This document shows, in pieces, positions 836-12,468 of a DNA stretch of 64,000 nucleotides. The translations under genes were made by a program, and so were the position numbers. The stretch is from NCBI RefSeq assembly GCF_000010785.1, contig NC_013799.1, forward strand, positions 744,001 through 808,000, in the 5' to 3' direction. The stretch's first letter is position 1. Every line of letters starts with the position of its first letter. The notes under the pieces are model-generated. The model worked only from the letters and a program-made list of their open reading frames with translations. It was not told where the DNA came from and searched no databases. Source of the DNA: Hydrogenobacter thermophilus TK-6. Its GTDB lineage: Bacteria; Aquificota; Aquificia; Aquificales; Aquificaceae.

Positions 836-2074
836 ATGCTTAGCAGGCGGAGTTTTTTGAAAGGCAGCCTTGTTGCAACGGCAGGGGGGCTTCTGGTGCC
901 AAAGTATGTATTGGCATCGGTTGACCCTTCCTTGCTAAGTACTGCGGCAAAGGAGCTTCCCGAGGGAGTTTTAGAGGAGCAGGTGCTGGAAGCTCTACCT
1001 GGCAAAAAGCCACTGATAAAAAAGACCTACAGAGCTCCCAACTACGAAACCCCAGTTAAGTACTTTAACGAGATCTTTACACCCAACGATGTCTTCTTTG
1101 TGAGGTACCACCTTTCCAACATACCTGAGGTGGATGCACGCACTTGGAAGCTAACAGTAGGGGGCGATGCGGTAGAGAGACCTCTCGAGCTGACGCTAAA
1201 TGACTTAAAGACCAAGTTTGAACAGGTGGAACTGGTGGCTTTGTGTCAGTGCTCCGGAAACAGAAGAGGACTCTTTAAACCTCATGTAGCGGGTGTAGAA
1301 TGGGGATATGGGGCTATGGGAAATGCCAAGTGGAAGGGAGTCAGGTTAAAAGATATCTTAGAAAAGGCAGGACTAAAAGCCAATGCCCTTGAGGTGGTGG
1401 TTGACGGTGCAGACACGGGTGTAGCAGCGGGTACGCCTGATTTTGTAAAGAGCATACCTGTCTGGAAGGCTCTTGACGAAAACACCATAATAGCCTACGA
1501 GATGAATGGAGAGCCACTGCCTCACTGGAATGGATTCCCCGCAAGGCTGATAGTGCCTGGCTGGACTGCCACTTACTGGATGAAGCATATAGTGTCTATC
1601 AATGTAGTTTCCAAACCCTTTGACGGCTTTTGGATGAAAAGTGCGTACAGAATACCCCTCGGCAAGTTTCCCATAAGGGACAGGTTCATATCTCAGGAAA
1701 CTGCTGTCAACACACCCATAACGGAGATAGTTGTAAACTCTCTGATAACCAACATAAACGACGGGCAGACTTTCAGACTGGGACAGGTGATTGAAGTCAG
1801 AGGTATAGCGTGGGACGGTGGCTACGGCATAAACATGGTAGAAATCTCTACCGACGGTGGCAAGACCTGGCGTGAAGCCGAGCTAGGCAAAGACTACGGG
1901 CGCTACTCCTGGAGGCAGTTCACCTACAGGTTCAAACCCAGCAAAAAGGGAGCTTATACCATAATGGCAAAGGCAAGCAACAGACTTGGGCAGACCCAGA
2001 CCTTTGAACTCATATGGAACCCGGCAGGATACCACCACAATGTGGTGCAAAAGATAAACATAAAGGTAGTGTAA
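836..2074 (+). CDS. Sulfite dehydrogenase, molybdopterin subunit (SorA-like), Tat-exported
   Basis: Periplasmic sulfite oxidation: a molybdopterin enzyme of the sulfite oxidase family takes two electrons from sulfite and passes them to cytochrome c. The N-terminus has a twin-arginine signal (SRRSFLKG, residues 3-10) followed by a hydrophobic stretch. The molybdenum-ligand motif CSGNRR is at 139-144 (Cys139), followed by the rest of the Mo-cofactor domain and a C-terminal immunoglobulin-like dimerisation domain with the motif EISTDGGKTW. At 412 aa it fits SorA/SoxC-type enzymes. The next gene, 14 bp downstream, encodes a small monohaem cytochrome, which fits SorAB better than SoxCD, since no sox genes are nearby. 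AGGAGGT lies 7 nt before the ATG. SorA and SoxC cannot be fully separated without a tree. Confidence 0.88.
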   Translation: MLSRRSFLKGSLVATAGGLLVPKYVLASVDPSLLSTAAKELPEGVLEEQVLEALPGKKPLIKKTYRAPNYETPVKYFNEIFTPNDVFFVRYHLSNIPEVDARTWKLTVGGDAVERPLELTLNDLKTKFEQVELVALCQCSGNRRGLFKPHVAGVEWGYGAMGNAKWKGVRLKDILEKAGLKANALEVVVDGADTGVAAGTPDFVKSIPVWKALDENTIIAYEMNGEPLPHWNGFPARLIVPGWTATYWMKHIVSINVVSKPFDGFWMKSAYRIPLGKFPIRDRFISQETAVNTPITEIVVNSLITNINDGQTFRLGQVIEVRGIAWDGGYGINMVEISTDGGKTWREAELGKDYGRYSWRQFTYRFKPSKKGAYTIMAKASNRLGQTQTFELIWNPAGYHHNVVQKINIKVV

Positions 2075-2088
2075 GGAGGTAAAAAAAC

Positions 2089-2370
2089 ATGAAAAGGGTG
2101 ATGTTCTTTGGATTTTTGTTGGCTTCTCTCTCCTTTGCGGGGGAGGAGAAGGTCAAGCTCAAAGATGGAGAAGGCAAGGCTCTGGTGGAAGCTAACTGCT
2201 CTGTATGCCACAGTCTTGACTACATACAGATGAACTCTCCCTTCCTTGACAAAAAAGGATGGGAAGCCGAGGTTAACAAGATGATAAAAGTCTTTGGTGC
2301 ACCCGTAAAACAGGAGGATGTTCCCAAGATAGTGGAGTACCTTACCAAGTACTACGGTAAGAAGGACTAA
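2089..2370 (+). CDS. Monohaem cytochrome c, SorB-like electron acceptor of sulfite dehydrogenase
   Basis: A 93-residue secreted cytochrome c. A signal peptide (about residues 1-17, cleavage after SFA) is followed by one CSVCH haem site (37-41) and a C-terminal helix ending with EYLTKYYGKKD. Met65 (NKMIKVFGAP) is a likely sixth haem ligand. The size, single haem and position right behind the molybdenum subunit (14 bp gap carrying GGAGGT) match the small subunit of sulfite:cytochrome c oxidoreductase. It would carry electrons to the terminal oxidase. Confidence 0.88.
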   Translation: MKRVMFFGFLLASLSFAGEEKVKLKDGEGKALVEANCSVCHSLDYIQMNSPFLDKKGWEAEVNKMIKVFGAPVKQEDVPKIVEYLTKYYGKKD

Positions 2371-9072: not shown

Positions 9073-10329
9073 CTATCCGAACATGTCCCTCCACAGTCCT
9101 TTTGCCCACTCTATGTACCTCTTGGCGGTGCTTTCCTTTCTCTGATTGTCTTCCCTGTGTATGGGTATAAACCTTCCTCTGTCTTTCTCATACTTGAAGC
9201 TCGTTTCCGTCATTATAGCTTCCCTGTCATCTACCATGGCATAACAGACCATCTGAAGGAGTTCTTCCTTAACTTCCTTACCCATTAGCTTTGCGTTTAT
9301 CAGTTTTGCTACTACCTTACCTTCCGAGTGAGCCGCATATCCACTCTTTGGCAGGTAGCTCATAGATGCATCCCCTATAACAAATACATTCTCTACCTGC
9401 GTCTCAAAGGTGAGGGGATTGACGCTCACCCACTTTTCGCCCTTCTTGAGAAGCCCAGCAGACTCTAAGATGCTGTGAGCCTTCATGGGTGGTATTATAT
9501 TGGCTATATCAAACTTAAAGTCTCCGTATGATGTTTTGACCACCTTCTTTCCTACATCCACATCCTTTACCTGCGCGGATGTCACATAGGTGGCAACATC
9601 CTTGTAAAGGTCATAGTAAGCTGACAGGAAACCTTCCGAGTTTATGAGAGGTCTTTCGTTGGCATCTATGAAGTAAAGGTGGGCTTTTAGTTTATTCCTC
9701 TTTATCATGCTGGCTATGAGAGCTGCCCTTTCGTAAGGTGCAGGTGGACATCTATAGGGAGGTGGTGGGACTGTTATCACTATATCGCCACCCTCAAACT
9801 CGCTCAGTAGTTTTTTTAGATATATGTGCTCGGACCCCGGCTTAAAGGCTGGAGGATAGTAAACTAAGGCTTCCGCATAGAAAGGTTTATCCTCTATGTC
9901 GTAATCTATACCCGGAGAAAGCACGAGAAAGTCATAGCTTATGTATCCCTGAGAAGTTCTTACCACCTTTCTGTCCAGCTCAATGCCTATAACTTTATCG
10001 TTAATTACTTTAACACCGTACTTTACCTCCAGCACGTTGTATGCAAAGCAAAGAGGTGTTAACTCCATAAGTCCTGCCAGAAAGTGGTTAGATAGAGGAC
10101 AGGACATGAAAAAGTGTCTCTGCTCAATTAGAATAACGCTTAATTTAGGGTTTTCCTTCTTTAAATACTTGGCGGTTGTCACACCACCGTACCCACCCCC
10201 CACTATCACCACCTGAGCATTCTCTCTTTTAGCTTCTCCTTTTGTAAAGGCTAATGTGGGAAATATACTCACTCCCACAGCGGACTTTATTAAGTCCCTC
10301 CTGCTAACACCTGATGATTTCCTTGACAT
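9073..10329 (-). CDS. FccB-type flavoprotein 2 (sulfide dehydrogenase flavin subunit family), Tat-exported
   Basis: A 418-residue periplasmic flavoprotein of the flavocytochrome c sulfide dehydrogenase family. The twin-arginine signal SRRDLIKS is at 9-16, the FAD motif GGGYGG at 44-49 and the C-terminal FAD block VIGDAS at about 317-322. The active-site segment YRCPPAPYERA places Cys194, and Cys362 lies 168 residues later, matching the redox disulfide of FccB (Cys161/Cys337, spacing 176). It should oxidise sulfide or a polysulfide-like sulfur compound. It overlaps the end of the Rieske gene by 26 bp; GGAGGT lies 8 nt before the ATG. No FccA-type cytochrome gene is adjacent. Confidence 0.82.
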   Translation of the reverse strand: MSRKSSGVSRRDLIKSAVGVSIFPTLAFTKGEAKRENAQVVIVGGGYGGVTTAKYLKKENPKLSVILIEQRHFFMSCPLSNHFLAGLMELTPLCFAYNVLEVKYGVKVINDKVIGIELDRKVVRTSQGYISYDFLVLSPGIDYDIEDKPFYAEALVYYPPAFKPGSEHIYLKKLLSEFEGGDIVITVPPPPYRCPPAPYERAALIASMIKRNKLKAHLYFIDANERPLINSEGFLSAYYDLYKDVATYVTSAQVKDVDVGKKVVKTSYGDFKFDIANIIPPMKAHSILESAGLLKKGEKWVSVNPLTFETQVENVFVIGDASMSYLPKSGYAAHSEGKVVAKLINAKLMGKEVKEELLQMVCYAMVDDREAIMTETSFKYEKDRGRFIPIHREDNQRKESTAKRYIEWAKGLWRDMFG

Positions 10330-11020
10330 ACTTTCCCACCTCCATAACTACGCATTTATCCACCAGCTCCTTTGCCTTTGCGGTAGAGCCATACTCCTTT
10401 CTTAGGTCCGTCTTGTAGTTTTCAAAAAAGGCATCAAACTGGTCTTTGCCCAGCACACCCACCGCATACAGCTTACCCCCTTCCTCTTCAAGAAGTATAG
10501 AAGCCAGAGGAACTTCCGCAGGACCTTCTATGACTTTTCCTCCCGCCTTGGGGTCAAACACAGTAAGGTGAGCGCAGCACTGGATGACTCCTGCCTTCTT
10601 GGTGGTTTCAGACGGCTTATCTGGAGGATAGTAGTTTATAAAGGCGTAGTCTTTAGTGGGGTAGCTCCACTGATGAGAACATATGGCGGAGTAGGCTACT
10701 ATGCTTTTTTTACTTCCCACTCCACCCTTCCAGAGGTAAGTTTGTCCGTCGTTGAGCTTTAGCTGAGCACCTTTTACCTCATCACCGAGGTTTATAAGAT
10801 AGCAGGGTGTGGAGGCAAAGGGATAGAAGAATATGTACTCTCTGTGGGGTGCTATATCCTTTTCAGTGAGGGGAGTGCCGTCCTCTTTGAGAAGTATGGC
10901 TTTGCTGTATAGCTTTAGAAAACCCTCCTGGCTGGCTAAAGCCTCTGAGAAAAACTTGGTATCCAAAAAGGATGCCACCGCTATGGCTCCGCAAGTCTTT
11001 ATAAAATCCCTCCTGTCCAT
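10304..11020 (-). CDS. Tat-exported Rieske [2Fe-2S] protein between two FccB-like genes
   Basis: A 238-residue secreted iron-sulfur protein. The chosen start (ATG at 11020, AGGAG just upstream) gives MDRRDFIKTCG, a twin-arginine signal, then the Rieske cluster ligands Cys114-Ser-His116 and Cys148-x-x-His151. The usual disulfide cysteines of bc1 Rieske proteins are absent at the expected places (CSHQW, CCAH), so it is not a standard bc1 subunit. A C-terminal tail of about 50 residues follows the Rieske fold. The gene sits between two flavoprotein genes and could take electrons from their FAD in place of a cytochrome. An upstream start at 11098 is possible but would read through a hairpin. Confidence 0.83.
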   Translation of the reverse strand: MDRRDFIKTCGAIAVASFLDTKFFSEALASQEGFLKLYSKAILLKEDGTPLTEKDIAPHREYIFFYPFASTPCYLINLGDEVKGAQLKLNDGQTYLWKGGVGSKKSIVAYSAICSHQWSYPTKDYAFINYYPPDKPSETTKKAGVIQCCAHLTVFDPKAGGKVIEGPAEVPLASILLEEEGGKLYAVGVLGKDQFDAFFENYKTDLRKEYGSTAKAKELVDKCVVMEVGKYVKEIIRC

Positions 11021-11058
11021 ACTTATCTCCTTGCAATTTTCGTACCAAAAAGGGAACA

Positions 11059-11074
11059 CCTCCCAAAAGGGAGG
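11059..11074 (-). promoter_or_regulatory. Perfect hairpin between FccB-like gene 1 and the Rieske gene
   Basis: CCTCCC, a 4 nt loop and GGGAGG form a perfect 6 bp stem in the 70 bp gap, followed on the minus strand by TGTTCCCTTTTT. The T-run is interrupted, so it may attenuate transcription or protect the mRNA. A second inverted repeat, GTTTGC/GCAAAC, spans 11081-11100 across the stop codon. Confidence 0.45.
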
Positions 11075-11090
11075 CTCAGGTTTGCATACT

Positions 11091-12410
11091 TTACGCAAAC
11101 ATATCCTTGTACATGCTCTTTGCCCATTCGTAGGTTGCCTTTGCCAGAGATTCAGAGCGCTCGTTTATGACCTTTGGTTTGGGTACTATCTTCTTTTCTT
11201 TGTCATTGTAGTCATAGGTGACATTTATGACAATAGCCTCCTGAGGCTCTCCGTTTACCATAGAGTAGCAGGTGTTGTCAGGAAGTGTGGGTTTTATGTC
11301 CTTGCCTGCTATGCGTGAGGCTATTATCTTGGCTACTATCTTGCCCTGAGAGTTGCCCATGTGTCCGCTCTTGGGATAAGGCACACCTCCTATGACATCA
11401 CCCACCAGGAACACGCGCGGGTCTGCCTTTGCCTGGAAGGTGAGGGGGTCTTGGTCTGCCCATCCTGTGGGTTTGCCGTCCTTGTCCTTGGCTATCAGAT
11501 CCGCCATCCAGACCAGCTCACCCGCCTGATGAGGAGGTACCAGGTTAGCATCTGCAAACTTAAAGTCTCCCGCAGTGGTCTTTATTACTTTGTTTACTGG
11601 GTCCACCTCCTTTATCTGAGCCTTTGGTACATACTCCACAATACCCAGATAGAGCTGTTCGTAAGCAGCCCTAAAGCCAGGGCCTTTTGGAGCTATGTCC
11701 TCCTTGGGGTCAAGGATTATAACTCTACCCTTTACATTATTCTTCTTGAAAACATAGGCTATCATAGCTGCTCTCTCGTAGGATGCGGGAGGGCATCTGT
11801 AAGCTCCGGGGGGAACAGTTATCACAAAGTCCCCCTCCTCAAACTCCCACACCTTTCTTTTAAGAGCCAGATGCTCAGAACCGGGGATAAAGGCTGCAGG
11901 ATAGTTTACCTTGGTGTAGTATGCCATATTCTTGTCCCCCTTGAACCACGCATCGTAGTTGTACTTTATGCCCGGAGCGAGTACAAGGTAGTCGTACTCT
12001 ATGTACCCGTGATTGGTGTAAACCCTCCTTTTGTCCCTTTCTATGCCTACTACCACAGCGTTTATAAACCTGTATCCGTACTTGGATGCAGGCTGGTTAT
12101 AATCGTGAGATATAAAATCTAAGCTTACCAGACCTGCCAGCCACTCGTTGGATATGGGGCACGAGAAAAAGTTAGGTCTCTTTTCTATGAGCACCACATC
12201 TATGTTGGGGTTTTCTTTCTTGAGATACTTGGCAACGGTCAGTCCTGCCCATCCTCCTCCGCACACAACCACCCTGCTGCCCTTGGATGGGGGAAGTATG
12301 GCTTCCGCTTTCTTTACCCTCTCCGCCGCAGAAAAGCCTACGGATGGGATACTGGCTGTCAGAGCCCCAACTCCTGCCAGTTTAAAAAGGTCGCGCCTTG
12401 TCATACTCAT
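11091..12410 (-). CDS. FccB-type flavoprotein 1 (sulfide dehydrogenase flavin subunit family), Tat-exported
   Basis: A 439-residue paralogue of the gene at 9073-10329. I place the start at 12410 because GGAGGT lies 7 nt upstream, giving MSMTRRDLFKLAG with a twin-arginine motif. The in-frame ATG at 12437 has no ribosome site. The FAD motif GGGWAG is at about 51-56, the active-site segment YRCPPASYERA has Cys206, and Cys381 (NTCYSM) is 175 residues later, matching the FccB disulfide spacing. An extra Cys84 (FFSCPISN) is shared with the paralogue. It is first in the cassette, with a strong promoter, and probably forms a heteromeric complex with the Rieske protein and the second flavoprotein. Confidence 0.83.
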   Translation of the reverse strand: MSMTRRDLFKLAGVGALTASIPSVGFSAAERVKKAEAILPPSKGSRVVVCGGGWAGLTVAKYLKKENPNIDVVLIEKRPNFFSCPISNEWLAGLVSLDFISHDYNQPASKYGYRFINAVVVGIERDKRRVYTNHGYIEYDYLVLAPGIKYNYDAWFKGDKNMAYYTKVNYPAAFIPGSEHLALKRKVWEFEEGDFVITVPPGAYRCPPASYERAAMIAYVFKKNNVKGRVIILDPKEDIAPKGPGFRAAYEQLYLGIVEYVPKAQIKEVDPVNKVIKTTAGDFKFADANLVPPHQAGELVWMADLIAKDKDGKPTGWADQDPLTFQAKADPRVFLVGDVIGGVPYPKSGHMGNSQGKIVAKIIASRIAGKDIKPTLPDNTCYSMVNGEPQEAIVINVTYDYNDKEKKIVPKPKVINERSESLAKATYEWAKSMYKDMFA

Positions 12411-12440: not shown

Positions 12441-12468
12441 ATTATAGTTTTTAATACAAAAAAGTCAA
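12441..12468 (-). promoter_or_regulatory. Strong sigma-70-type promoter of the FccB-Rieske-FccB cassette
   Basis: On the minus strand TTGACT (12463-12468), a 16 bp spacer and TATAAT (12441-12446), about 24 nt before a good ribosome site and the ATG at 12410. The surrounding 12438-12530 gap is AT-rich with no other feature recognised. Confidence 0.7.

Follow-up and report, generated by a model that had tools for sequence, protein, structure and literature searches.

Flavocytochrome c, in which the flavoprotein FccB is partnered by the cytochrome FccA, is the textbook periplasmic sulfide dehydrogenase. Here, we report a comparative analysis of a cassette of three genes in Hydrogenobacter thermophilus TK-6, encoded in a 64,000-nucleotide stretch of its 1,743,135-base genome (hereafter the window; contig NC_013799.1, positions 744001-808000), where two FccB-type flavoproteins, FccB1 and FccB2, flank a Rieske [2Fe-2S] protein. 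Judged from gene neighbourhoods, the minimal conserved unit is the FccB-Rieske pair, and this pair represents a genuine and conserved variant of flavocytochrome c sulfide dehydrogenase for which we found no earlier characterisation, directly supported by gene content, conservation, catalytic residues, phylogeny and predicted folds. The gene arrangement itself is already known (PMC3504083); new, as far as the open literature shows, is FccB-Rieske as a core unit, phylogenetically apart from FccAB and present in three phyla.

FccB1 (439 amino acids; 11091..12410, minus strand), the Rieske protein (238 amino acids; 10304..11020, minus strand) and FccB2 (418 amino acids; 9073..10329, minus strand) are the three frames that a first-pass annotation of the window had read as two FccB-type flavoproteins around a Rieske protein on one strand, and our analysis bears this reading out. 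Both flavoproteins match the Pfam families FCSD_central and FCSD-flav_bind above the cut-offs, and the middle protein matches the Rieske family PF00355 (25.0 bits; cut-off 20.3). The predicted twin-arginine translocation (Tat) signals are present, with an RR motif at each N-terminus (MTRRDLFKL, MDRRDFIKT and VSRRDLIKS, one per cassette protein), and the spacing is as tight as had been claimed, with 70 nucleotides between the FccB1 and Rieske genes and a 26-nucleotide overlap between those of Rieske and FccB2. The cytochrome subunit is indeed lacking: neither FccA nor any other cytochrome c is encoded next to the cassette in the neighbourhood read, and the sole FccA-like match in a genome-wide search scores weakly and is interrupted by an in-frame stop.

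Each cassette protein was searched against 136 Aquificota genomes, and 58 Rieske neighbourhoods, including that of the window, were read. The Rieske search matched 63 genomes in two families, the weak matches among them being other Rieske proteins. An FccB gene lies directly upstream of the Rieske gene in 56 of the 58 loci; the two exceptions are L082, where the upstream FccB is broken, and L100, where FccB fragments lie on other contigs. FccB2 is found downstream in 33 loci, and the complete FccB-Rieske-FccB order is retained in 31. A further 19 loci have room downstream, yet no intact FccB2, and some genomes, the single-contig G050 and G052 among them, have no FccB2-type match genome-wide. 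FccB2 is therefore optional.

A scan with the Rieske alignment, covering one genome per species (84,980 species), detected relatives among Campylobacterota, betaproteobacteria and gammaproteobacteria, so that a restriction of the cassette to Aquificota was rejected. FccB is directly upstream in 31 of these 36 loci, some of the FccBs being clipped by a contig end (L186, one of the exceptions, is truncated by its contig end), and none of the loci contains FccB2; the unit is FccB-Rieske only. Because it is conserved across Aquificota and other phyla, the arrangement is more than chance. In L162 and L167, a two-haem FccA, a classical FccB, a Rieske-type FccB and the Rieske protein are encoded in this order, and this tandem marks FccA-FccB and FccB-Rieske as distinct units.

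The first-pass annotation had proposed that the Rieske protein replaces the cytochrome in a heteromer with two different flavoproteins. The comparison favours the first part, with the Rieske protein as the conserved genomic partner, in FccA's place, of a separate FccB subfamily in three phyla. The second part is not supported, since FccB2 is missing from many genomes, G050 and G052 among them, and from the loci of the other phyla. An obligate 1:1:1 enzyme of FccB1, Rieske and FccB2 would account for the order retained in 31 of the Aquificota loci and for the 26-nucleotide gene overlap in the window, but is quite improbable in view of the 19 Aquificota loci with downstream room and no intact FccB2, the FccB2-free loci of other phyla, and the FccA-linked type of the upstream FccB in L077, L079 and their relatives. 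The comparison leans instead towards separate complexes for FccB1 and FccB2.

In a bootstrapped tree, the FccB proteins form three groups, namely those linked to FccA or SoxF (support 100/100), FccB2 (100/98) and those encoded upstream of Rieske (99/97). The Rieske-linked FccBs are split from the FccA/SoxF-linked ones at 100/100, and the groups stay unmixed when long-branched rows are added. FccB1 and FccB2 fall in separate, supported clades. Identity with classical FccAB was rejected, as the cassette lacks FccA and both flavoproteins lie across the 100/100 branch from FccA-partnered FccBs. Identity with SoxF was also rejected: Paracoccus SoxF/SoxEF resembles the cassette in having a periplasmic FccB-type flavoprotein tied to Sox genes, but SoxF falls with the FccA-linked FccBs, and the annotated Paracoccus stretch (L192) contains no Rieske gene. 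The Tat signal and the FCSD-specific domains exclude a sulfide:quinone oxidoreductase, for which the genome has a separate candidate gene, with 29% identity.

The covalent-FAD (flavin adenine dinucleotide) Cys42 as well as Cys161, Glu167 and Cys337 (A. vinosum numbering) are invariant in all 51 aligned FccBs, including FccB1 and FccB2, and the redox cysteine pairs noted at first pass (C206/C381 and C194/C362) align with Cys161/Cys337 of A. vinosum FccB. Among PDB structures, the FccB1 model is matched best by the FCSD flavoproteins 5n1t, 3vrd and 1fcd, with a TM-score by target of 0.89 for 5n1t. The cassette shares the flavoprotein fold, the covalent-FAD Cys, the redox Cys pair and Glu167 with the FccAB enzymes of A. 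vinosum (1fcd), T. tepidum (3vrd) and T. paradoxus (5n1t), and differs from them in the lack of FccA, the separate FccB clade, an altered C-terminal helix, the replacement of Tyr306 in FccB1 and the Rieske neighbour.

In the alignment, the altered helix is recognizable by the signature WA..[YW]RD[ML]F, which marks both Rieske-linked FccB groups; none of the FccA/SoxF-linked FccBs whose C-terminus is included carries it. In FccB1, the signature EWAKSMYKDMFA (11094..11129, minus strand) sits in the last helix of the predicted model, residues 420-438, and is a candidate Rieske docking element; its counterpart in FccB2 is EWAKGLWRDMFG (9076..9111, minus strand). The flavin-to-haem path in FccB has been described as running through Tyr306, Thr336 and a C-terminal Trp (PMC12010331, where some of the A. 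vinosum residue numbers appear to have been transposed), and our comparison of the FccA interface covered these residues. The Tyr306 column holds Tyr or Phe in 7/7 FccA/SoxF-linked FccBs and in 12/12 FccB2, and Asn, His, Asp, Met or Ser in 31 of the 32 FccBs upstream of Rieske (His in 7, including FccB1 of the window; histidines, which may be misplaced in the alignment, were scored as non-phenolic). The C-terminal column is Trp in every row that reaches it, and Thr336 is uninformative because it varies even among FccA-linked FccBs. The loss of Tyr306 in FccB1-type proteins is consistent with an altered electron exit, and does not by itself give the destination of the electrons.

In both sequence and fold, the Rieske protein is closest to AioB of arsenite oxidase and to Sulfolobus SoxF, not to the bc1 protein; AioB is the best structural match of its model (pLDDT, the predicted local distance difference test, 89.8). 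The Rieske fold and the CxH...CxxH ligands are both present, the latter as C114-S-H116 (10673..10681, minus strand), with C114, H116 and Q117 invariant across 44 aligned proteins, and C148-C149-A-H151 (10568..10579, minus strand). A grouping check places the protein with neither bc1 nor oxygenase subunits. The bc1 candidate was rejected because Ser119 and Ala150 stand at the disulfide positions and the bc1 Rieske protein of this genome is encoded by a different gene, adjoining cytochrome b; the oxygenase candidate was rejected because the protein does not group with oxygenase Rieske proteins. A third Rieske domain in the genome is fused to a NifU-like domain. AioB itself was rejected as well, given that no molybdoenzyme gene is adjacent in the window and that the protein belongs to a clade of its own, which has a support of 98 in a quick, long-branched tree; its TIGR02694 score of 47 bits is under the cut-off of 95.65. 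AioB is the nearest solved Rieske protein, and one that serves as a subunit donating to cytochrome c, whereas the cassette protein differs in its flavoprotein rather than molybdoenzyme partner, the CCxH motif, and a C-terminal extension of about 47 amino acids beyond the AioB domain, which is predicted to be well folded and ends in Cys.

This final residue, C238 (10307..10309, minus strand), is conserved as Cys in all but one of the 44 aligned relatives and is also kept in loci without an overlapping FccB2 gene. C149, beside a cluster ligand, is equally conserved (43/44), as nearly is C10, within the signal peptide (42/44). One might speculate, with little expectation of being right, that sulfane sulfur released by FccB is taken up or passed on by C238 or C149, in the manner of the C-terminal Cys of SoxY, which would make FccB-Rieske a novel type of periplasmic sulfur oxidoreductase, with a Rieske protein that joins the chemistry in addition to carrying electrons.

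We consider it rather likely that FccB-Rieske is a two-protein periplasmic dehydrogenase of sulfide, or of related sulfane sulfur, with electron flow from FAD to Rieske to cytochrome c and with FccB2 as an optional addition. The physical complex, the substrate, the electron path and the acceptor we infer as follows. By analogy with the family, the FccB of this distinct subfamily would oxidise sulfide in the periplasm at the Cys pair and FAD, and the electrons would pass singly to the [2Fe-2S] cluster in the Rieske protein that partners it. A soluble cytochrome c would then receive them from the Rieske protein, by analogy with AioB in arsenite oxidase (PMC5574378). In Hydrogenobacter, FccB2 may share the Rieske protein or build an alternative complex, with no obligate heterotrimer, and may work with the same Rieske protein on another substrate or at another affinity.

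Several observations weigh against this scheme. Biochemistry of a Rieske-linked FccB or of an FccB-Rieske pair was not found in the open literature, to which subscription papers may add some. FccB2 retains an aromatic residue at Tyr306, and the pathway argument therefore does not extend to it. Rieske-clade FccBs stand alone at L045, L105 and L106, and that of L154 is unlinked, elsewhere in the genome. In the betaproteobacterial loci L155, L156 and L159, a side-branch Rieske protein with the ligand motif CCSEH instead of CCAH has no adjacent FccB (in L156, only 634 bases are available upstream of Rieske), and the sole close FccB found in each of these genomes is not a member of the Rieske-linked clade and follows a haem gene. 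Finally, DhsU1, an FccB from an uncultured Sulfurihydrogenibium-like organism, LSSB, is active as a lone monomer (PMC3504083), so that a partner is not essential for an FccB.

The LSSB cluster described by Tamazawa (2012) has the order cytochrome-like gene - dhsU1 - Rieske - dhsU2 - sox; purified alone, DhsU1 was an active monomer on sulfide and inactive on sulfur, sulfite and thiosulfate, and expression of DhsU2 was unsuccessful (PMC3504083). Among the open papers searched, this is the sole one that treats the two kinds of gene together. This cluster resembles the cassette of the window in the Rieske gene between two FccB genes, the Tat signal and its origin in Aquificota, and differs in the cytochrome gene upstream and the sox genes downstream; its Rieske protein was not studied. 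The related order monohaem cytochrome - FccB - Rieske - FccB2 - SoxX - thioredoxin-like - SoxY - SoxZ - SoxA is found in three Hydrogenothermaceae loci (L077, L078 and L079), and L081, which ends at a contig edge, has the same type of FccB. The cytochrome of the three loci is FccA-like, as T. tepidum flavocytochrome c, through its haem subunit, provides the best PDB match; the next gene encodes an FccB of the classical FccA-linked clade, and the FccB2 next to Rieske falls on the Rieske-linked side. In L080 and L083, also from Hydrogenothermaceae, a Rieske-clade FccB takes the place of the FccA-FccB pair, and clear FccA homologues within Aquificota are limited to 4 genomes, all of this family. 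By synteny with L079, DhsU1 is of the FccA-linked type and DhsU2 of the FccB2 type, and because of this placement the purified DhsU1 is not the counterpart of FccB1. To our knowledge, no counterpart of FccB1, FccB2 or the cassette Rieske protein has been assayed. The claim that no enzyme of this make-up has been characterised stands insofar as we found no purified one, although the arrangement had been reported before (PMC3504083).

The FccBs might, like SoxF and DhsU1, work singly, as monomers that oxidise sulfide and pass the electrons to soluble cytochrome c, leaving the Rieske protein as a general carrier or a Sox accessory. The activity of the DhsU1 monomer (PMC3504083) and the lone Rieske-clade FccBs of L045, L105 and L106 speak for this possibility, which we nevertheless regard as unlikely considering the FccB-Rieske adjacency in three phyla, the distinct FccB clade, which bears a C-terminal signature peculiar to it, and the assignment by synteny of DhsU1 to the FccA-linked rather than the FccB1 or FccB2 type. 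Alternatively, the pair could use sulfane sulfur bound to SoxY or another protein as its substrate instead of free sulfide, as a Sox helper where SoxCD is missing. The cassette of Hydrogenothermaceae directly precedes soxX-soxY-soxZ-soxA, soxYZ or soxXA is found close to the pair in L180, L182, L184 and L189, a Rieske-type FccB gene overlaps soxY in Paracoccus alcaliphilus, and the stretch read of the sox cluster in the window's genome contains no soxCD. However, the cassette lies outside the sox cluster in Hydrogenobacter and the other Aquificaceae read, and DhsU1, albeit from the other clade, acts on sulfide and not on thiosulfate or sulfite; a helper role thus seems to us very doubtful.

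If the pair is indeed a sulfide dehydrogenase that transfers electrons through Rieske, hot-spring Aquificota and numerous sulfur-oxidising proteobacteria oxidise sulfide through an undescribed redox chain, genome surveys of 'fccB' lump two different enzymes, and there is another case, besides arsenite oxidase, of a non-bc-type Rieske subunit serving a respiratory dehydrogenase. The comparison narrows the question to two proteins, which are open to direct experiment.

Two possible regulatory elements accompany the cassette. The strong promoter proposed at first pass corresponds to a sigma-70-like consensus match, TTGACT-16 nucleotides-TATAAT (11/12; 12441..12468, minus strand), just upstream of FccB1, which makes it a candidate promoter by consensus. 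Between the FccB1 stop and the Rieske gene, a pattern match identifies a hairpin, GCCTCCC-TTTT-GGGAGGT (11058..11075, minus strand), through which the genes could be unequally expressed.

Gene content varies further among the relatives. L101 has four genes in the order FccB1 - FccB3-type FccB - Rieske - FccB2, and its relatives carry differing subsets, which suggests differential loss. In Hydrogenobacter sp. KUB_Bin01 (G026; L050/L185), from the same genus as the window, stops and frame changes interrupt the matches to FccB1 and Rieske, and FccB2 has no match, reflecting either recent loss or assembly error. A Gallionellaceae locus (L166:8001-9681) has two tandem Rieske genes of the cassette family after a single FccB. 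On plasmid p402633 of P. alcaliphilus (L190), the order is cytochrome c - FccB - YeeE - second FccB - SoxY - SoxZ; the second FccB, the one overlapping soxY, is of the Rieske-linked type (43% to FccB1) and has no Rieske neighbour.

The genome of the window encodes a third FccB (L045:7898-9230; G000:C1:887.9-889.2 kb), a Rieske-clade protein with no adjoining Rieske gene, next to a gene for a CCG-type iron-sulfur protein. Its Tat signal, MRLDRREFLKLSG..., and the mature protein are in different frames, and ten consecutive A lie where they meet, which may reflect a pseudogene, slippage, phase variation or an assembly error. The sox cluster of the same genome contains a tandem soxA pair with long identical internal stretches (L198:8735-10297). 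Within the window, 7 kb from the cassette, lies a gene for a SorA-like sulfite dehydrogenase (836-2370, plus strand; 457 bits against an NCBIfam cut-off of 600), followed, in a SorB-like position, by the gene for a small monohaem cytochrome c.

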